NCBI GenBank assembly: GCA_028281165.1
Contig: JANQKI010000172.1
Coordinates: forward strand, 1 to 64,000
Length of the DNA stretch: 64,000 nt
Reading direction: 5' to 3'
DNA from: Opitutaceae bacterium
Lineage (GTDB): Bacteria > Verrucomicrobiota > Verrucomicrobiia > Opitutales > Opitutaceae
Under the pieces are notes generated by a model. The model was not told the DNA's origin, searched no databases, and saw only the letters and a list, made by a program, of their open reading frames with translations. Shown here piece by piece: positions 37,189-52,143 of the stretch (positions are counted from its first letter, which is position 1; each line of letters begins with the position of its first letter). Made by a program: the position numbers and the translations under genes.

Positions 37189-39675
37189 ATGGCTCAGTCC
37201 GACCAAAGCGATTCCGACACTCCGGGAATGGAGAAGGAAGAAGCGCAAAACGCCTCGCATTTAAGTAAGCCAGGCGAAAATGATGCTGTGACCGAATCGG
37301 AGGCTGCCGTTGAAAAGGGTAACGATGATTCAAATGAGAAAGAGCTGCCTAAGGATTCCCTTGAGAGCGAGGTCGATGGCTCGATTTCATCTGCTGAAGG
37401 GCAATTGAAAGACGTCCTGGATCCCCAAGACGACTCTGATTCCAATGCCCCAACTCCTGAAGATCAGGAATTCCAAAAAGACGTTTCCGATCTGCTAGGG
37501 CAATTGGATGGCGATCTTCAAGACCTTGGCAAAGAGGAAGACTCGGAAACGTTATCTAGCGATTCAACTCAACCCGAAGAATCCACCCAGCCAAAATCAA
37601 TCGAGGATATCGAAATCCCGGCTGATCCAATTGAATCTGATTCAGATGAGACTGCCGAGGGTGGGTTAGATGAAAATAGCGGCAGGGTTGAGGATGAAGG
37701 ACCAGCTCCCAATGAAAGCGAAACTGAGAAAGCTCCGAGCCTTCCATCACCCGAGGATTTGCTAAAGCAAGCGAGTAGCGTTCTCAACGGGGATGACGCG
37801 GTCGATCTTGATGCTCTTTCAGTTGAAGAGGAAGATGTTCAGACGCTGCCTTCCCCCGATGCCCTTATTTCTCAAGCCGGCGCTGAATCGGAATCCGGCG
37901 TTGGCCAAAAGGAGGGTATTTCAGAAGCCGAGAATTTAGAATCTCCTTCGAGCGAGAACCAAGAAAATCTAACCTCGACGACAGCGAAGAACACCGAAGC
38001 AGACGCTCCATCTGATATCGACGAGTCAGAGGAGGAAGAAGTCATGGCGATGCCTGATCCTCAGGCTTTGATAGATGCCGCTGCCACGGGAAAGAAAGTA
38101 GAGGCTCCAGAGCCCGAAGCTATCCCGGCCATCGATGACTCCGATGATGAGCCTGAACCTCAAGCGGCTAATGTTGCGGATCGAGGTGGCGATCTACCGC
38201 CTCCACCTCCTGCTCCTGTTGCGATTGATGATGATGATCTAGAATTTCCCGATCCTAAATCACCTTCAGATGACGAAGGGGAAGGCAAACCTGGCTCTAG
38301 CGATCCCTTTGCCGACGATTCCTTAGATGGCTTTAATGAGCCTTCGGATGGCGCGGACAAAGAAGGAGGAATCGAAGCGCTGAGTAGCGATGATTCAGAA
38401 GAAAAAGGAGAAGAGGCCTTCGAGATTGCCGATCCTATCGAGGAGCTGAAGGGGCTTGAGGCTCTTGAAGATCTGGTTCCTATTGAAGATTTGGAGGACG
38501 TTGATGTCGAGAATTCCGAAGCAGTAGTTTATAAAAAGCCTTCGCTGGTCCACCGTATCCTGACTTCGACTACGCTTGCTGCTTCCCTCTTTTTTCTAGG
38601 AGTTGCTATTGTCCTGGCTAACTACAAGCAGGAAGTGGTTGAATTTCTGTACGGTCAGGATTTCGACGCGTCTCGACTGTCTTATCGTATTGCCAATATT
38701 TCCAGTCAAGTCCTGGCGGGCATAAACGAAAATGGTAACTATGAAATGCAAGCCGTCTCCTCTCGAATCAGACGTGTAGGGGTGGATGAGATACGCATCA
38801 ATGCTGTAGTGGCCGCTAGGTTACGGAAGAATCTCTATCTTCCTGTTTCTGATGATTTGGCGATGAGAAAGTTTAAATTCGATGATGCCGAATTAATCCG
38901 ATGGAAGGCTATTCAGGAAAAGGATTTCCCCGGAATTATTCGAGCTCCGGAAAGGACTTGGCGGTTGCTGTATCGGAGGTCCGCTGAAAAAGGCGAAACC
39001 GTTTCCGTGAATGCAACTTATCGACTCACTCGTGAAGGTAGAGGCTCGGAATGGAAACTGTCTGAGATTCGCATTAAAGGAGTGGAAGATGAACTGGTTT
39101 GGCCGGAAGGAGATCCAAAAGAAAGTTTTGGACCGTTAGCATACGATTTGGACTCGCCAAAGTTCGCCTCTGTATTTCGCGAGCATAAGACCAACGCTCT
39201 CTGGTATATAGAAAAGGTACAGCAGATGAGCTCCGAGGCTCAAAGGACCGCCGCTAAGATTGCCGAGCTCAAAAGAAAGAACGAAGAGCGTTTGATTGGC
39301 GCTTTGTCTGAAGGAGCTTATTTTAAGGGAATGGCTATTGTGGGTGATGAGGGTGAAGACGCTCGAGAAATTTTTATGGTCATCACAGATACCGATGAAA
39401 ACGGCTCCCTCGTTAAAGGCGTTTTCAAACTAAATGAATCTGAAGATCACTCGAAGCACTTTACTGGCTTCCTGGATTTCAAACATCAGGATAATGGAGA
39501 GAGTGAGGCCATGTTGAAAGTAACGACCGTCGCCTTTGAAGGCGAGCGAAGCAATGAAACGCTCCCGCAGTTTTTCAATCCAGGCACCGTTACAAGGATA
39601 AATCTCCAAACAGATGGCCATCGTATGGAGGGCGACAGCAACGATGTTTCGCTGCGCTTGGTCCGCCGGCTTTAA
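37189..39675 (+). CDS. Large acidic single-span membrane protein with repeated LPxPxxLxxxA motifs
   Basis: Not recognised. Residues 1-450 are a strongly acidic, disordered-looking cytoplasmic region of Asp/Glu/Ser/Pro. Within it a short motif recurs: LPSPEDLLKQA (185-195), LPSPDALISQA (220-230) and MPDPQALIDAA (288-298). A proline run (about 337-341) follows. One transmembrane helix lies near 458-477 (TTLAASLFFLGVAIVLAN). The C-terminal ~350 residues form a folded, probably periplasmic region with mixed strands and a helical LKRKNEERL segment (about 690-705). The membrane orientation is inferred from the acidic N-terminus and the KKPSLVHR basic patch before the helix. The next gene follows 44 bases later. 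Confidence 0.75.
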   Translation: MAQSDQSDSDTPGMEKEEAQNASHLSKPGENDAVTESEAAVEKGNDDSNEKELPKDSLESEVDGSISSAEGQLKDVLDPQDDSDSNAPTPEDQEFQKDVSDLLGQLDGDLQDLGKEEDSETLSSDSTQPEESTQPKSIEDIEIPADPIESDSDETAEGGLDENSGRVEDEGPAPNESETEKAPSLPSPEDLLKQASSVLNGDDAVDLDALSVEEEDVQTLPSPDALISQAGAESESGVGQKEGISEAENLESPSSENQENLTSTTAKNTEADAPSDIDESEEEEVMAMPDPQALIDAAATGKKVEAPEPEAIPAIDDSDDEPEPQAANVADRGGDLPPPPPAPVAIDDDDLEFPDPKSPSDDEGEGKPGSSDPFADDSLDGFNEPSDGADKEGGIEALSSDDSEEKGEEAFEIADPIEELKGLEALEDLVPIEDLEDVDVENSEAVVYKKPSLVHRILTSTTLAASLFFLGVAIVLANYKQEVVEFLYGQDFDASRLSYRIANISSQVLAGINENGNYEMQAVSSRIRRVGVDEIRINAVVAARLRKNLYLPVSDDLAMRKFKFDDAELIRWKAIQEKDFPGIIRAPERTWRLLYRRSAEKGETVSVNATYRLTREGRGSEWKLSEIRIKGVEDELVWPEGDPKESFGPLAYDLDSPKFASVFREHKTNALWYIEKVQQMSSEAQRTAAKIAELKRKNEERLIGALSEGAYFKGMAIVGDEGEDAREIFMVITDTDENGSLVKGVFKLNESEDHSKHFTGFLDFKHQDNGESEAMLKVTTVAFEGERSNETLPQFFNPGTVTRINLQTDGHRMEGDSNDVSLRLVRRL

Positions 39676-42669: not shown

Positions 42670-44376
42670 ATGGCTCGACAATCAAATAAGGGCTCATTGC
42701 GCATTCTAGCTGGCTGGCTTTTGCTGCTTTTAGGCGTTGGACTTGTCGCTCTTGGTTGGCTCGTTCCCTCTCGCTTCAAATCTGTCCCCATTGACGTCCT
42801 CAAAGAAGCGGGCGCCGGTACAGAATACATTGTCGATACTGCTGATTCCTATCTTCTCGAAAACAATGTAGGCGTCTCCTCGCTGCTTTTGGAGGCCATG
42901 CGTCTGCTTGATATTCCTGACGATTCTGGTTTAGAGCTACGCCTAAACGCAACCAAAGAGGCAAATGCTCTCATCAATCGCTGGGGCGCCTGGGACCTAT
43001 TCCTTGACGCGGCCTTTTCAGGTATTCCGCTCGAATACTATTCTGATCAGCCGGGAGCTTTGGGCATCGTCTTGGCAAAGGCCAATCGCGATTCACTAGG
43101 CGCTACGCTTGTGAATTCTCGCAATCCTTTGGTTTCTGAAATCCTCAGCACCGGCGAGCTGACAACTTATCGACGTTTATTCCCTGTCAACAGCTCGGCC
43201 GGGCGTCCCTTGGAGGCTACCTTGCTCATCGTTTCATTGCTGGCTCAGGAGGAGCGCTTTTCGCCTCCGGTTCGCCGCGAAATACGCAATCGAGCTTTGC
43301 AGGCAAAAGCGTCTGGAGACGCCTCCCATCTCGAAGACTTTTATTTGGATATGCTCTCCCTCTCGCGCAGTCTGGATTGGGGCCAACTCAAGACACTTCT
43401 AAGTAGTTTCCAAGAATTGGATACATTTACTCAACTGCGATACGCATTTCATCGATCCGCAGACTCCCTGCCTATTATCTATGCAGCCTCCTTGCTATCC
43501 AGCGATCCGGAGGGAGTTATGCAATATCTCGGCGAATTTGGCGATCAAGGTGTGGAGACGCTGGGGATCGCTGTCGCCTTTGGCGCTGGTAGTGTCTCGC
43601 TTCTCGTTAATGAGCAACTGCCGTTGGAAAATCTTGATAGAGCCAATGAGATAGCGGATTCGAGTAACGCTTTGGGCTCCTGGCTCGCTAGTTTTAGCCT
43701 GCAACGTCCCTATTTGTCATTGTCGGTCAAATACGCCCTGTTCTTCACCGGAGCTTTTTTCGCCTTTTTAGGTTCTAGCAGGTTTAGCCGATTTTACGGC
43801 GAACGAAGCTCTCCCATGCTAGCCTACACGCAACGGGTCTTCGTGTCGTTTGCCTCGCTTATCGTATTGATCGTCATAAGCGAGCCGCATCTGGCTGGAA
43901 GTTCCAGCGAGGGTTATTCTTTTCAATTCGTTATGCCTGTTCTCGCTCAAGAAGCGGGCGAACTTGTAGTTATAGAAACAACACCATCTACGTCTATGGA
44001 TCATACAACAATGCTATCCGTCGGGTTCTTCTTCCTGTTGCAGGTCTTGGTTTTTCTGATTTGCATGCTCAAGGTACGCGAGATCAATCGTCAGGAGGTC
44101 GACGATCTAGTGAAACTGAAACTCATGGAAAATGAAGAGAACCTCTTCGATGCCGGGCTCTATGTAGGCATTGCCGGAACCTGTATTTCCCTTGTCTTGC
44201 AGGTGCTCGGTCTGATCGAGGCCAATCTCCTTTCTGCTTATGCTTCGAACCTCTTTGGCATTCTCTGTGTAGCCATTGTGAAAATACGTCTGGTTCGTCC
44301 CTACAAGAACCAGCTGATTCTGGCCAGTCAGGATCAGCTGATGATGCTCACCAAGAAGACGGCCATAACGGGTTAG
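42670..44376 (+). CDS. Multi-span membrane protein with ExbB/MotA-like C-terminal end
   Basis: Not recognised as a named family. The 568-residue product has one N-terminal membrane helix (11-32) and a large, mostly helical region (33-345), presumably periplasmic. Further hydrophobic helices lie near 350-370, 388-404, 447-466, 494-514 and 519-538. The last two helices read LYVGIAGTCISLVLQVLGL and LLSAYASNLFGILCVAIVK. They resemble the pore-helix pair of the MotA/TolQ/ExbB family (LLGLLGTVxG and ALxTTxxGLxxAI). A charged helix before them (about 470-492) would match the cytoplasmic stalk. The next gene starts 8 bases later. The channel idea is inference. Confidence 0.6.
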   Translation: MARQSNKGSLRILAGWLLLLLGVGLVALGWLVPSRFKSVPIDVLKEAGAGTEYIVDTADSYLLENNVGVSSLLLEAMRLLDIPDDSGLELRLNATKEANALINRWGAWDLFLDAAFSGIPLEYYSDQPGALGIVLAKANRDSLGATLVNSRNPLVSEILSTGELTTYRRLFPVNSSAGRPLEATLLIVSLLAQEERFSPPVRREIRNRALQAKASGDASHLEDFYLDMLSLSRSLDWGQLKTLLSSFQELDTFTQLRYAFHRSADSLPIIYAASLLSSDPEGVMQYLGEFGDQGVETLGIAVAFGAGSVSLLVNEQLPLENLDRANEIADSSNALGSWLASFSLQRPYLSLSVKYALFFTGAFFAFLGSSRFSRFYGERSSPMLAYTQRVFVSFASLIVLIVISEPHLAGSSSEGYSFQFVMPVLAQEAGELVVIETTPSTSMDHTTMLSVGFFFLLQVLVFLICMLKVREINRQEVDDLVKLKLMENEENLFDAGLYVGIAGTCISLVLQVLGLIEANLLSAYASNLFGILCVAIVKIRLVRPYKNQLILASQDQLMMLTKKTAITG

Positions 44377-44384
44377 GATTCCTC

Positions 44385-45818
44385 ATGAACAAGACACTGC
44401 TTCTAATCCTCGTCGACTTTCTTCTTTTGACCATTCTCTCTCTTACCAAATGGGATGAGGAGCGCTCTGAATCTTCTTCATCGGAGATCAATCCGGAAAC
44501 AAGCGTCGCGACCATGGCGGTTATGGAGCAGGATTTATTGGATACACTAACAAGCAGCCTGCAAGAGGAGCAGTCTACACAAGAATTGCTGGCCCAGCAG
44601 ATGAAAGAAAGAGAGGCCGAGCTAGCCCGACGCGAGGAGGCTATCCAAAACCTGCAATCGAGTCTCCAAACCACCCAGGATAGCGAAGCGGCGTTGAAGA
44701 AGGAAAGAACCGAGCTACAGCAGCAATACGAGCAGACACAACTAAGCGTAAGCGAGCTGCAGAGCAAATACGATCAGCTCAATGTGGAGGCTCGGCAAAC
44801 GGAAGCTCAATCGCGAATGCTTCAAGAAGAGCTCGACTCTAAACTAAAGGAAATCGAAGCCAAAGCCAAAGCATTGTCTGAAGCCGAGCAAACCATAGTT
44901 CAATCTCAACAGCGTATCCAGGAACTGAATATAGATGTGCGTGTTGCCAAGGAAGAGTCAAAATATCTGCAGCAGAATGTGGATATGCTTCGTGTCGAGG
45001 TGCAAGCCGAACGCGAGGATAGAATAAAAGCCCAGGAACAGGCCGGTCTGATGGCGGAAAGCGTGTCGCAGCTCGCAGAGAAATCGGAAGACATCCGAGA
45101 GGAGATTCGTTCCAATACTCCTATAAACGCCAATCAGATTTTCAACGACTACCTCGCCAACCGAGTTCAAGCTTCGTTCGTATCCGAAGTCTTCTCGCGG
45201 GGGAGGGTGGTGCAGGAAGATGATGAGACGACAACCATCTTTGTGTCGGATGGACAGGATATCTTTGCCATTGCCCATCTAGATTATACACCCCTTGGGT
45301 TATCTCGGAATCCAGCGGGGTTTCGTCAGGTGACATCGATTTTGGAGCAAGCTGGAAAAATCTATTCTCCAAGCCGACTCTCGTTCCTTGCCTTGGACCC
45401 TCGAGTGGCGGCAGTTCCCGTACCCAAAGAAAAAGCGCAGGAGCTTGGCGGTTCGATCTACTATACTGCGATTGAGCCTTTCAAGTTTTCCGAGGCTGTA
45501 TTGATAAACGCGCGAGGAAACTATTATGGCGAGGTAGAGTTCAAGCTCGATGCTGATACTCCGGGCTACGTGAAAATGCAGTCCAAGATTTTCAGTTCCC
45601 TCTTTGGCGAGTTTTCTCCTTCCACGGGAGATCTTGTTTTTTCTAAAACAGGCGAGATGCTGGGAATTATGGTCGATCGTCGCTATTGCGCATTGATCAG
45701 CAATCTAATTGTTAAAGAATCAATTCCTCTCAGCCAGCGATTTCAAAATAGAGAACTGGTTAACGCGATTTCGTCGTTAAGATCCCGGTACGATCTTCTT
45801 CCAACTGAGGTGCGCTAG
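44385..45818 (+). CDS. Coiled-coil membrane protein with a buried Asp helix and protease-like C-terminus
   Basis: Not recognised as a named family. The 477-residue product begins with a single membrane helix MNKTLLLILVDFLLLTILSL, in which Asp11 lies in the hydrophobic stretch, as in the B subunits MotB and ExbD. A long coiled coil follows (about 45-240, very rich in Gln, Glu and Lys). The C-terminal ~225 residues are a folded beta-rich domain. Its end (TGDLVFSKTGEMLGIMV, about 414-430) resembles the last strands of chymotrypsin-like proteases, but I see no catalytic triad. There is no OmpA-like peptidoglycan-binding domain. It lies 8 bases after its presumed partner. Confidence 0.65.
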   Translation: MNKTLLLILVDFLLLTILSLTKWDEERSESSSSEINPETSVATMAVMEQDLLDTLTSSLQEEQSTQELLAQQMKEREAELARREEAIQNLQSSLQTTQDSEAALKKERTELQQQYEQTQLSVSELQSKYDQLNVEARQTEAQSRMLQEELDSKLKEIEAKAKALSEAEQTIVQSQQRIQELNIDVRVAKEESKYLQQNVDMLRVEVQAEREDRIKAQEQAGLMAESVSQLAEKSEDIREEIRSNTPINANQIFNDYLANRVQASFVSEVFSRGRVVQEDDETTTIFVSDGQDIFAIAHLDYTPLGLSRNPAGFRQVTSILEQAGKIYSPSRLSFLALDPRVAAVPVPKEKAQELGGSIYYTAIEPFKFSEAVLINARGNYYGEVEFKLDADTPGYVKMQSKIFSSLFGEFSPSTGDLVFSKTGEMLGIMVDRRYCALISNLIVKESIPLSQRFQNRELVNAISSLRSRYDLLPTEVR

Positions 45819-48283: not shown

Positions 48284-48667
48284 ATGATCGATGAGACGCT
48301 CATGCTCGAGAACTATTCTATTGCCAAGAAGCTTCTCGATGTTGCCCATGCCAAACACCAGGCCATTGCCAGTAACATTTCCAATGTTGAGACGCCTGGT
48401 TACAAACGGCAGGACATCAACGTCGATTTTGACGCTCAACTACGGAAATTAGCTCAGAATGATGATGTCCAGAGCATTCAGAATCTCGACTTTCAGGTAA
48501 TCACCGATCTCGCCACTCCGTCAGTCCGAGCGGATGGCAACAACGTCCAGCTCGATAAAGAGCTGCTGAACATGAGCCAAAACTCGGTTCAGTACGAATA
48601 TCTCACCAACTACGTCTCCAATTCGCTCAAGCAGATTGAGACGGCCATCAAGGGACAAGTGGTTTAA
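48284..48667 (+). CDS. flgB: Flagellar basal-body rod protein FlgB
   Basis: FlgB is a proximal rod subunit, exported by the flagellar type III apparatus. The 127-residue product has the rod N-terminal signature KHQAIASNISNVETPGYKRQ (about 24-43) and the helical C-terminus NSVQYEYLTNYVSNSLKQIETAIKG. It opens the operon. The upstream ATG at 48280 is out of frame, so ATG 48284 is preferred. Confidence 0.94.
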   Translation: MIDETLMLENYSIAKKLLDVAHAKHQAIASNISNVETPGYKRQDINVDFDAQLRKLAQNDDVQSIQNLDFQVITDLATPSVRADGNNVQLDKELLNMSQNSVQYEYLTNYVSNSLKQIETAIKGQVV

Positions 48668-48683
48668 ACAGGAGATCGCCGCC

Positions 48684-49109
48684 GTGAATTTGATGCCAGG
48701 ACTTGAAGCCACCTCATCCGCTTTGCAAGCGGAGAAAATGAGGTTGGACATTATCGGCCAGAACATCGCGAACGCTCAAACCACAAGCGGCCCCGATGGC
48801 AAGCCATATGCCAGACAGGTGGTTTCGTTTGAAGCCAAACTTATGGAGATGGGAACCTCCAATGGCGAGACAACAAAAGGATATGGAGTAGGGATTCGTA
48901 GTATAACAGAGGATACATCTAAAGGACCTCTCGTATACAATCCAGGGCATCCTGACGCCGATGACCAAGGGATGGTCCGCCTGCCCAACGTTAACATTAC
49001 TCATGAAATGGTGGACTTGATCGCCACCTCTCGAGCCTACGAGGCGAACCTGCAAGTCGTTCGTACGGCCAAACAGCTCGCGTCTCACGCCCTGAAGATG
49101 GGCAAGTAA
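48684..49109 (+). CDS. flgC: Flagellar basal-body rod protein FlgC
   Basis: FlgC is the second proximal rod subunit. I chose GTG 48684 because it lies 9 bases after AGGAG (48670-48674) and gives VNLMPGLEATSSALQAEKMR, which aligns with the usual FlgC beginning. The in-frame ATG 48636 lies inside flgB and would add 16 non-rod residues; ATG 48693 is another option. The 141-residue product has LDIIGQNIANAQTTSGPDGKPYARQ and the C-terminal NVNITHEMVDLIATSRAYEAN motif. Confidence 0.92.
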   Translation: MNLMPGLEATSSALQAEKMRLDIIGQNIANAQTTSGPDGKPYARQVVSFEAKLMEMGTSNGETTKGYGVGIRSITEDTSKGPLVYNPGHPDADDQGMVRLPNVNITHEMVDLIATSRAYEANLQVVRTAKQLASHALKMGK

Positions 49110-49151
49110 TTATATCTGTACCTATTTTTCCAATACTAACACCACAAGATT

Positions 49152-49535
49152 ATGATTGACCAAATTTCACAACTCGGAGCTGGCGGCATGCAGCAGGATC
49201 TGGTTGGCATGATGAAGGATGCTCAGGCCAAGGCTCTTGAGGAGATCAAGTCCAATCCAGAATTCGCCAATCCTGCCATTGACGACCCTAATCGGTTAGG
49301 AGGAAGTGGCCGTCCGGGCGCCTTTGACAATATGCTGGGCAATCTTGTCAAGGAAGTGGATGACAAGATCAAGGTTTCCAGAGGCGAAGCCAACAAGGTG
49401 CTCCTTGGGGAATCGGACAACATTCACCAATCGATGATCGCTTCGCAAGAGTCGGGGCTGGCTTTCACCTTACTGGTCGAGGTCCGCAATAAACTGGTTC
49501 AGTCCTACCAGGAGCTGATGAGAATGCCTGTGTAG
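49152..49535 (+). CDS. fliE: Flagellar hook-basal body complex protein FliE
   Basis: FliE joins the MS ring to the proximal rod. The 127-residue protein is helical, and its last 60 residues carry the family signature (VLLGESDNIHQSMIASQESGL, VEVRNKLVQSYQELMRMPV). The N-terminal half includes a glycine/glutamine linker. It is placed between flgC and fliF as in most operons of the flgB-flgC-fliE-fliF type. Confidence 0.92.
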   Translation: MIDQISQLGAGGMQQDLVGMMKDAQAKALEEIKSNPEFANPAIDDPNRLGGSGRPGAFDNMLGNLVKEVDDKIKVSRGEANKVLLGESDNIHQSMIASQESGLAFTLLVEVRNKLVQSYQELMRMPV

Positions 49536-49555
49536 CGAATTGATGGAGACAGAAG

Positions 49556-51127
49556 ATGAACGATCTTGTAAATCAGTTTAAAGAGCTTTGGGGACCGCTT
49601 GGAACGAATCAGAAGATTTCGCTGATTCTTGCTTCCGGTCTTGTGTCATTGGCCATGATCGCGATGATGATCTGGGCCGCTCAACCAGATATGCAGCTTC
49701 TTTACGGCAATCTTTCTACCGAAGAAGCAGGAGAGATTGCTTCCAAGCTTGAGGCCAAAGGAATCGCTCACGAGTTCAAAGCTGGTGGATCTTCCATCTA
49801 CGTTGACTCGGGCAAAGTCTATGATTTGCGGGCCCAGTTAAGCGCCGAGGGCATCGTTCCAAATGGAACGGGACCAGGTCTCGAGCTTTTCGATAAAGGT
49901 AATTTCGGGATCAGCGACTTCGCTCAACGTGTTAATTTCAATCGAGCGATAAAGGGTGAATTAGAGCGAACGATAAGTCGTTTCAAAGGCGTTACCTCTG
50001 CCCACGTGATGGTAGTGATGCCTTCCAATCAGCTGGTCATCGCTCGTAATGATCAGGACAATCCTACGGCTTCTGTGATGGTCGAAACCTCTGGAGGGCT
50101 TGCTTTGCCGGCGGTAAATTCCATCCGTCATTTAGTCGCCAATTCCGTACAGGGTCTGGTTGCTGAAAACGTCGTGGTCGTGGATAGTTTCGGTAAAACC
50201 TTGAGCGAAGAACTTCAAGACGACGGTCTAGGCGGAGGGCTTACAACCGCTCTGATTCGTTATCGTAAGAACACGGAGTCTTATTTCACCCATAAGGTCC
50301 AAACGGTTCTGGATCGCGTATTGGGGCCTGGTCAGTCAGAGGTGCTTGTAGCGGTTGACGTGGATACAACCTCAGTCACAACGACACAGACTACCTTTGA
50401 TCCAGATAGCCAAGTTGCTCGTTCTTCGAATTCACAGAAAACAAAGACCGAGACGACCGAGAGTAGCGGAAACGGTGGAGGTCCAGCGGGAATTGATGCG
50501 AATCTACCCAATCAAGCTCCTGGGATAGTGACTCCTGTAGTTTCAAATTCGGATACAAGCGAAACCAAGGATGAGGAATTCGAGATAAATTCGATGGAAA
50601 GTATCAGTATCCAAAATCCAGGGGATATTAAGAAAGTCACCGCGTCGCTTCTTGTTGCGAAGCGCTATAAAACGGATGGCCAGAACCAGGTAGCCGATCC
50701 GCGTACGCCCGAGGAACTTGATGAATTGCGCCGCATTGTGGTCAACGCGTTGGGCATCGACAATCAGAACCCGGACGACGTTACCGTTAAGGAAATGGAT
50801 TTCGCGCCCAATCCGCTTCAGTACAGCGCTGATGTTGTTGAGCGCAGTCTGAAAATGGATCAATGGATCGGCATCGCCAAGACAGCGCTGGGAGCGCTTC
50901 TCGGCATTGGCGTCGTTATGTTTTTCTTGAAAATGCTCAAAAACAACCAGCCTGAGCAAATCTCTGTCGAGGTGCTAAAGCCCGAGCAGATGCTGCAAGC
51001 CAGCAAGCTTGATGACACGAGCGTGGTTACGCCGGAGATGTTGAACGAACTCATCAGGCAAAAGCCTGCCAACATAGGAGTGACGCTCCGAGAATGGATC
51101 GGAGATCCCGAAACAGCGAATAAGTAG
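49556..51127 (+). CDS. fliF: Flagellar MS-ring protein FliF
   Basis: FliF forms the inner-membrane MS ring that anchors the rod and C ring. The 523-residue product has an N-terminal membrane helix (about 22-43, KISLILASGLVSLAMIAMMIW) and YscJ/FliF ring-building motifs (LYGNLSTEEAGEIASKLEAKGI, RAQLSAEGIVPNGTGPG, RAIKGELERTISRFKGVTSAHV). A low-complexity loop follows (about 275-345), then a second membrane helix (about 440-462) and the C-terminal FliG-binding tail. Confidence 0.95.
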   Translation: MNDLVNQFKELWGPLGTNQKISLILASGLVSLAMIAMMIWAAQPDMQLLYGNLSTEEAGEIASKLEAKGIAHEFKAGGSSIYVDSGKVYDLRAQLSAEGIVPNGTGPGLELFDKGNFGISDFAQRVNFNRAIKGELERTISRFKGVTSAHVMVVMPSNQLVIARNDQDNPTASVMVETSGGLALPAVNSIRHLVANSVQGLVAENVVVVDSFGKTLSEELQDDGLGGGLTTALIRYRKNTESYFTHKVQTVLDRVLGPGQSEVLVAVDVDTTSVTTTQTTFDPDSQVARSSNSQKTKTETTESSGNGGGPAGIDANLPNQAPGIVTPVVSNSDTSETKDEEFEINSMESISIQNPGDIKKVTASLLVAKRYKTDGQNQVADPRTPEELDELRRIVVNALGIDNQNPDDVTVKEMDFAPNPLQYSADVVERSLKMDQWIGIAKTALGALLGIGVVMFFLKMLKNNQPEQISVEVLKPEQMLQASKLDDTSVVTPEMLNELIRQKPANIGVTLREWIGDPETANK

Positions 51128-51129
51128 TT

Positions 51130-52143
51130 ATGCCTTTCGGAACTTCATATCAGAATTATACACGCGTCCAAAAGTTGGCTCTTTTCCTAGTCGTCATCGG
51201 ACCAGAGGCGGCCGCTCACGTTCTCAAGCAATTTGAAGACGAGAGCATCGAGGCGATCTGTAAGGAGATGACTAAAATCTCCGCTATCGAAGAGGAGGAG
51301 CAGAGGCAGGCCATAGAGGAATTTTCATCCGTTATACTTTCTAGCTACAGCTCTCTTTTGGGCGGTCCGCTCTACACGCGAAAGACTTTGGAAATCGCTA
51401 AAGGCGATTTCAAGGCGACCAGCATCCTTGAACGCATTGCTCCTACCAGCAACTCGGCTGAGGTTATCAAGGAAATCGAGCAGATGGAGCCTCGCCAGAT
51501 CTTCAACATGATCAAGACCGAGCAAGCTCAGACCATCGCTTTCGTGCTATCCTATCTAGAAAAGGACAAGGCCGGACCTATTTTGGGCATGTTCAATCAA
51601 GACATACGCGAGGAGGTAATCGAACGTCTTGGCATGATGGAGCCTACCTCCCTTGAACTCATCAACAAGGTGGCCAATTCCTTGAGTAAGAATTTGGATA
51701 CAAAACAGAAGACCACCATGAATCGTAGCGGAGGTGTTCGCATGGTGGCCGATCTGCTCAATACTTTGGAGAAGGAAGACAGCAAGGCGATTCTGGCCAA
51801 TATCGAGGAGCGCAACCCGACATTGGGAACAGAGATTCGCAAAAAGATGTTCAGCTTCGAAGATCTGATTCGTCTCGAGCTCCCGGATTTGCAACGTATC
51901 ATGCGCGAGGTGGATTCTGGCGATCTGACTGTGGCCTTGAAGTCGGCTACCGATCATCTGAGGGACAGCATTCTCCAGGCGGTTTCGAAGCGCGCTGCGG
52001 AAACCTTGCTCGAAGAATTGGAAATGATGGGACCGGTCAAGCTTACCGAGGTGGAGGCGGCCCAAGAACGCGTCATTCAGGTGGTGCGCCGTTTGGAAGA
52101 ACAGGAGGAAATCAGCCTAGATGGTGGCGGTCAAACAGTCTAA
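51130..52143 (+). CDS. fliG: Flagellar motor switch protein FliG
   Basis: FliG is the rotor protein contacted by the stators. The 337-residue sequence has the N-terminal FliF-binding domain (KLALFLVVIGPEAAAHVLKQF), the middle domain (EQAQTIAFVLSYLEKDKAG), and the C-terminal torque helix with the charged residues expected (RKKMFSFEDLIRLELPDLQRIMREVD). Two bases separate it from fliF, and its end overlaps fliH by 23 bases. Confidence 0.96.
   Translation: MPFGTSYQNYTRVQKLALFLVVIGPEAAAHVLKQFEDESIEAICKEMTKISAIEEEEQRQAIEEFSSVILSSYSSLLGGPLYTRKTLEIAKGDFKATSILERIAPTSNSAEVIKEIEQMEPRQIFNMIKTEQAQTIAFVLSYLEKDKAGPILGMFNQDIREEVIERLGMMEPTSLELINKVANSLSKNLDTKQKTTMNRSGGVRMVADLLNTLEKEDSKAILANIEERNPTLGTEIRKKMFSFEDLIRLELPDLQRIMREVDSGDLTVALKSATDHLRDSILQAVSKRAAETLLEELEMMGPVKLTEVEAAQERVIQVVRRLEEQEEISLDGGGQTV

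Follow-up and report, generated by a model that had tools for sequence, protein, structure and literature searches.

A conserved Verrucomicrobiota gene pair that probably encodes an undescribed ion-driven membrane motor with a pseudoprotease-like head

What might two adjacent genes of an Opitutaceae bacterium, which we call A and B and neither of which is matched by a motor family in Pfam or NCBIfam, be doing together? The question was raised by a sequence-only reading of the window (the whole stretch of DNA that was analysed, 64,000 nucleotides), and we think that its answer is probably the right one, namely that A and B make up an undescribed ion-driven membrane motor working like MotAB, TolQR and ExbBD. 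Our reasons for favouring this reading are that the pair is conserved, that one membrane residue of B, Asp11, is invariant, that A carries a polar pair of residues, and that the model of A has an ExbB-like layout. A bolder version is also possible, and we put it forward tentatively: the pair might stand for a class of 5:2-type motors of its own, spread across the phylum, whose axle B spans the periplasm as a 30-45 nm coiled coil and displays at the outer membrane a pseudoprotease head derived from HtrA, so that the roles of TolR/ExbD and TolA/TonB are merged. Few ion-driven 5:2 motors are known, each powering a different envelope task, and a pair missed by Pfam, NCBIfam and PADLOC would widen the class, as well as giving a testable function to two otherwise uncharacterised Verrucomicrobiota proteins. 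The features that matter for the argument are collected in Table 1.

Table 1. Positions of the features discussed, with the basis of each assignment (window coordinates unless stated)
Feature	Position	Strand	Basis
Gene A, membrane protein, proposed pentameric pore (outer ring) subunit	42670..44376	+	ORF list, TM/charge pattern, 39-sequence alignment, minimal homologs
A core, TM4-TM6 and C-terminal tail, residues 449-568, ExbB-like module	44014..44373	+	Top conservation, AlphaFold model, PDB matches; equals whole short A
Thr504 in TM5 of A, proposed pore-ring residue (T or S in homologs)	44179..44181	+	Aligned with GLLGTV Thr of ExbB/TolQ
Ser526-Asn527 in TM6 of A, proposed second pore-ring residue (527 is N or T)	44245..44250	+	Aligned with ExbB TM3 Thr and MotA TM4 Thr
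Gene B, N-terminal membrane helix, periplasmic coiled coil, HtrA-like C-terminal domain; proposed dimeric axle	44385..45818	+	ORF list, alignments, motif statistics
B membrane helix MNKTLLLILVDFLLLTILSLTKW	44385..44453	+	TM prediction; first 20 positions strongly conserved in 156 loci
Asp11 of B, proposed ion-binding residue	44415..44417	+	Invariant in 156/156 loci and 42/42 orthologs
B coiled coil (residues 45-243), which as a full helix would measure about 30 nm	44517..45113	+	0 Pro and 1 Gly in 199 residues; SMC/tropomyosin-type matches
B chymotrypsin/HtrA-fold domain, residues 244-477 (model from residue 240)	45114..45815	+	AlphaFold, Foldseek, VIA, column composition
Flagellar cluster: rod proteins, FliF, likely FliE and FliG	48284-52143
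Genuine MotA, just outside the window	contig position 69921-70244
Kinase/FGE-sulfatase and ABC-F loci with short A	L218 8534-12807; L220 520-5083; L221; L224; L227

Both open reading frames lie where the sequence-only reading had placed them, and they are indeed neighbours, the start of B falling 8 nt past the stop of A. The A protein has 568 residues and six predicted helices (TM1 10-28, TM2 349-367, TM3 385-403, TM4 449-467, TM5 492-512 and TM6 520-540), and its charge pattern fits an N-terminus inside the cell, a periplasmic N-domain and a cytoplasmic C-terminus. The large N-terminal domain that had been described as some 300 residues long occupies residues 29-348, between TM1 and TM2, where about 320 residues show an acidic excess; the cytoplasmic loop between TM4 and TM5 (468-491) is only about 24 residues long. 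Conservation is far higher in TM5 and TM6 than in the rest of A, with mean pairwise identities of 0.78 and 0.81 vs 0.42 for the N-domain. A phylum-wide profile search found homologs of about 180 residues in other classes of the phylum, matching only the C-terminal third of A, and the reciprocal short-A profile recovered the A of the window at E 1.6e-16 (two further matches to the A profile, L235 and L236, were discarded as prepilin-like leaders). These short A proteins have four membrane helices and none of the large N-terminal domain, and each of their genes lies directly 5' of a B homolog, mostly of 485-630 residues. It follows that the core of A should be TM4-TM6, with the periplasmic domain (29-348) an addition that, judging from the homologs, appears to have been gained in the Opitutales lineage. 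As a separate observation, at several short-A loci the gene after B encodes a Ser/Thr kinase that carries an FGE-sulfatase (formylglycine-enzyme-like) domain as a fusion, and the gene after that an ABC-F ATPase, apparently in one operon.

How far does this core resemble the pore subunits of known motors? The motifs of long A are (D)xxLYxGIxGT and AYSS(N/T)LFGI, and those of short A are GLFGTV and AYSSTLIGI; profile alignment sets the short-A GLFGTV on the GLLGTV of ExbB, and AYSSTLIG on the Thr motif of TM3/TM4 in ExbB/MotA. The polar pore positions that the sequence-only reading asked about are present in the A homologs read, as T/S504 and T/N527, although S526 gives way to Ala or Thr in a few of them, and by alignment these two appear to be a polar pair at the pore-threonine positions of ExbB/MotA, where they may line a pore. 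In hhalign comparisons, short A matched local ExbB with P 0.0044, another ExbB-like family with P 0.0026 and MotA with P 0.042, the probability being only 1-12%, and column-shuffled targets reached the observed scores in 0, 0 and 1 of 120 cases, respectively. The matches are individually weak, and all three target families give the same pairing of the TM hairpin. This signal comes mainly from the short-A profile, since the long-A and combined-A profiles gave nothing significant against ExbB. For 39 long and 10 short A proteins, the matches listed at E up to 10 did not include PF01618 (MotA_ExbB), and sequence searches of Pfam, NCBIfam and the PDB with A, B and their profiles gave chance or coiled-coil matches only. 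The spacing of the polar positions also differs, being 23 residues in A vs 33-34 in ExbB/MotA. What such residues can mean is well illustrated by the Tol system, in which TolR D23 together with TolQ T145 and T178 is the proposed proton site and an established functional triad, mutation of any one of the three leading to cell death with deoxycholate (PMC12583513).

The AlphaFold model of A residues 341-568 (pLDDT 79.6) has a TM4 of 30 residues, a TM5 of 18 and a last helix of 48 residues that runs into the cytoplasm. Foldseek returned no significant match to it (best E 0.74, TM-scores of 0.2), and 16 of the 20 top chains were PomA, TolQ, ExbB or MotA. With VIA, ZorA, TolQ, ExbB, PomA and MotA made up 27 of the 50 top entries (Z 6.3-9.1 over 113-125 residues), and unrelated helical bundles scored as high (6r2g, Z 9.7). 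Such an enrichment is striking, since of the 177,635 sequences in the PDB only about 17-19 distinct ones are picked up by the profiles of ExbB and MotA, and it has to be read with the fact that the motor-family entries found are related to each other. We take the structural matches as support for an ExbB/MotA-like fold, not as proof, no single one being significant. The resemblance of the last two helices of A to the ExbB/MotA pore pair is supported as regards the modelled layout and the families found, with scores that are individually non-significant; the model did not show the lack of ExbB/MotA-like packing that would have counted against a motor.

The B protein (477 residues) has a single membrane helix at its extreme N-terminus, residues 3-21, and it contains the buried Asp of the sequence-only reading. 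Asp11 is, besides Met1, the only invariant residue of this segment across the 156 paired loci of the phylum, and among 42 B orthologs D11, F12 and L13 are all invariant. The helix resembles those of ExbD and MotB from the same genomes, PLIDMVFILLIFFIV and YADFVTAMMALFMVLW, and also the TolR motif L21LDVLLVLLL30. There follows a predicted coiled coil of about 200 residues, as had been proposed, with 45% E/K/R/Q, and it is longer in the short-A clades. No OmpA or ExbD domain was found by Pfam, in keeping with the first description of B. In its place the AlphaFold model of residues 240-477 (pLDDT 90.6) is a double beta barrel that matches solved structures in Foldseek at E 2.4e-6 (prob 1.00), and an anti-sigma factor, RsgI9, supplies its top VIA match with its S1C domain (Z 12.6), so that the modelled C-terminal domain is clearly a chymotrypsin/HtrA double barrel. 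DARPin matches of this domain were put down to chance, being contradicted by the beta-barrel model. The ‘protease-like’ end of the sequence-only reading is thus borne out as a fold, and to it we would add something that was not said there, namely that the head is probably a catalytically dead pseudoprotease, because the catalytic Ser is not conserved. Its position (T414), assigned by the sequence motif GD-V--TGE--G against GGPLVN-DGEVIG, holds R/T/A/K in the long type of B and V/P/I in the short type, and the column composition of neither type shows a full His-Asp-Ser triad.

Do A and B really belong together? In 57 related genomes, 43 have both, 13 have neither, none has A only and one has B only (Fisher p = 6e-12, a statistic that ignores phylogeny), and wherever both are found in the 156 paired loci, A precedes B on the same strand with a median gap of 4 nt. 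In addition, a scan of GTDB genomes gave 364 loci, and in the best 80 of these, which carry Opitutales/Verrucomicrobia titles, B lies 3' of A on the same strand wherever the contig reaches that far; MAG sequences form the bulk of the genome sample. A-B is a conserved gene pair, and it is found phylum-wide. Genomes carrying either gene alone would have spoken against a pair, and the sole one found (G044, L073 4773-5585) encodes a B ortholog of 271 residues with a signal-peptide-like start and the HtrA-like domain only, lacking the coil and the Asp helix. This natural experiment shows that the head can occur in the absence of the membrane unit. In another genome (G051, L071 and L072), A and B lie 72 kb apart, both intact and with Asp11 kept, so linkage alone does not explain their joint retention.

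Beside the pair in the window are genes for a divergently oriented peptide deformylase, PhoH, a GNAT acetyltransferase, a sulfatase and a ferritin, followed by flagellar genes, and the deformylase is kept beside A in 80 loci. A flagellar role was considered and rejected, since flagellar genes, 2.5 kb downstream here, occur close to A-B at no more than about 10 of the 80 related loci. A genuine MotA is encoded further along the contig, which makes the A-B pair additional to the normal stators. The source genome has 16 PF01618 matches, and a second, divergent PF01618 family of about 285 residues, with GFIGTVRG...AFNSTLIALVLSIVLMFF and weak Pfam scores, was seen at L239, L240, L241, L244, L252, L253 and L254. 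Another protein of the window (37189-39675) deserves a mention in its own right: it has 828 residues, a very acidic, Ser/Asp/Glu-rich N-terminal half, one central membrane helix and no Pfam match.

Could the same features be explained in another way? The most serious competitor, which we nevertheless consider unlikely, is a transmembrane sensor, in which the head would bind a periplasmic ligand and the coil would pass a signal on by way of the Asp helix, either to A or to a partner in the cytoplasm, for example a kinase. Degenerate HtrA-like folds may serve in sensors, the top VIA match of the head is to RsgI9, and the Ser/Thr kinase-FGE-sulfatase gene adjoins the pair in several short-A genomes. 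However, that kinase is not beside the pair in Opitutales, A has no cytoplasmic signalling domain, its parts on that side being short loops and a tail, and an invariant membrane Asp together with a conserved polar pair at the ExbB positions would not be called for in a sensor. Slightly less probable still is a reading in which A, with its several helices, anchors a membrane-tethered chaperone or pseudoprotease B or helps it to assemble, and in which Asp11 serves helix packing only, by hydrogen bonding to A or by pairing with a charge in it. Helices can be held together by buried Asp residues, A has conserved charges near the membrane (K538/R and D494), and B can persist in a helix-less form, as G044 illustrates; yet the conserved Lys/Arg lies about 11 residues from N527 towards the cytoplasm, which is not the depth expected for the Asp, and the ExbB-like arrangement and the GLFGTV/AYSSTLIG motifs would go unexplained. 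Finally, that B is an active membrane-tethered periplasmic protease with a regulating partner is very improbable: the HtrA fold, His298 in 80 of 88 long-type B and a widely conserved Asp338 might suggest it, but short-type B lacks the His and the Ser position has changed as described above.

If A and B are a motor, as we favour, how might it run? Five A subunits would come together as a ring, TM5 and TM6 would line its pore, and T/S504 and T/N527 would make up a polar ring within it. The axle inside would consist of two B helices, whose Asp11 would bind the proton or sodium ion, and ion entry would drive a stepwise motion of B relative to A. The parallel coiled coil of B, about 30 nm long, would carry this motion to the paired dead HtrA-fold domains, whose target may lie at the outer membrane or in the peptidoglycan, and in Opitutales the periplasmic domain of A could serve to anchor the ring, or it could surround the coil as a collar. 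In this scheme we infer the 5:2 stoichiometry, ion conduction, the movement and its direction, the binding partner and the cellular role. Such a machine would offer a minimal ring subunit of 180 residues, a simple coiled-coil shaft and a foldable head, and it would be a good system in which to study how work across the periplasm is obtained from ions flowing through the inner membrane.

How, then, does the pair compare with systems that are already known? No description of it was found in the literature searched, which lay outside subscription papers and preprints. The head of B shares its double-barrel chymotrypsin fold and its membrane tether with HtrA/DegS and with the S1C domain of RsgI9, and differs from them in that neither a conserved catalytic Ser nor a PDZ domain was found in B, and in a coiled coil of some 200-300 residues. 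GldLM, which serves type IX secretion and gliding, sets a precedent for a 5:2 motor that shows no obvious sequence homology to MotAB and whose inner subunit bears a long shaft in the periplasm (PMC9389320); the GldM shaft consists of four domains and measures 18 nm, whereas B has a coiled coil and a single HtrA-like head. ZorAB, the motor of Zorya phage defence, provides some of the best VIA matches of the A core (8qyh, Z 9.1), but ZorA has a long cytoplasmic tail, and in A-B the long part is on B and would be periplasmic. A role in Zorya or other defence was rejected: no Zorya model was among the PADLOC matches of A and B at E up to 1, those matches were to coiled coils only, and the neighbours are housekeeping genes. 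One study (PMC12505986) reports that additional domains have often been acquired by A subunits outside the flagellum, and that Zorya stands at a still greater distance.

The flagellar stators MotAB and PomAB are alike in the position of the pore hairpin motif and in the Asp helix, and PomA is the first-ranked Foldseek match of A, but the pair has neither the torque-generating cytoplasmic domain nor the OmpA-like peptidoglycan-binding domain, and no plug was identified. Closest in plan are TolQR and ExbBD, with their partners TolA and TonB, which share with A, going by its model, three core helices with a very long last one and, by alignment, a polar pair in the pore hairpin, and with the pair as a whole a B-type subunit with a leucine-rich N-terminal helix and one Asp, and adjacent genes. 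They differ in that A has no detectable PF01618 match and a short cytoplasmic loop instead of a large region; in that the residues before the Asp of B are mostly I-C or L-C, without the Pro of ExbD or the Tyr of MotB (PLID and YAD in the local proteins); and in that B has its long coiled coil and HtrA-like head instead of a small ExbD/TolR domain. Because PF01618 is unmatched, the cytoplasmic region is missing and there is no ExbD or OmpA domain, we would not file the pair under the MotA/ExbB family. The coil and head in place of the ExbD/TolR domain suggest that the axle and the periplasm-spanning transducer may be one protein: TolQRA and ExbBD-TonB divide ion use and the link across the periplasm between separate proteins, and B would do both.
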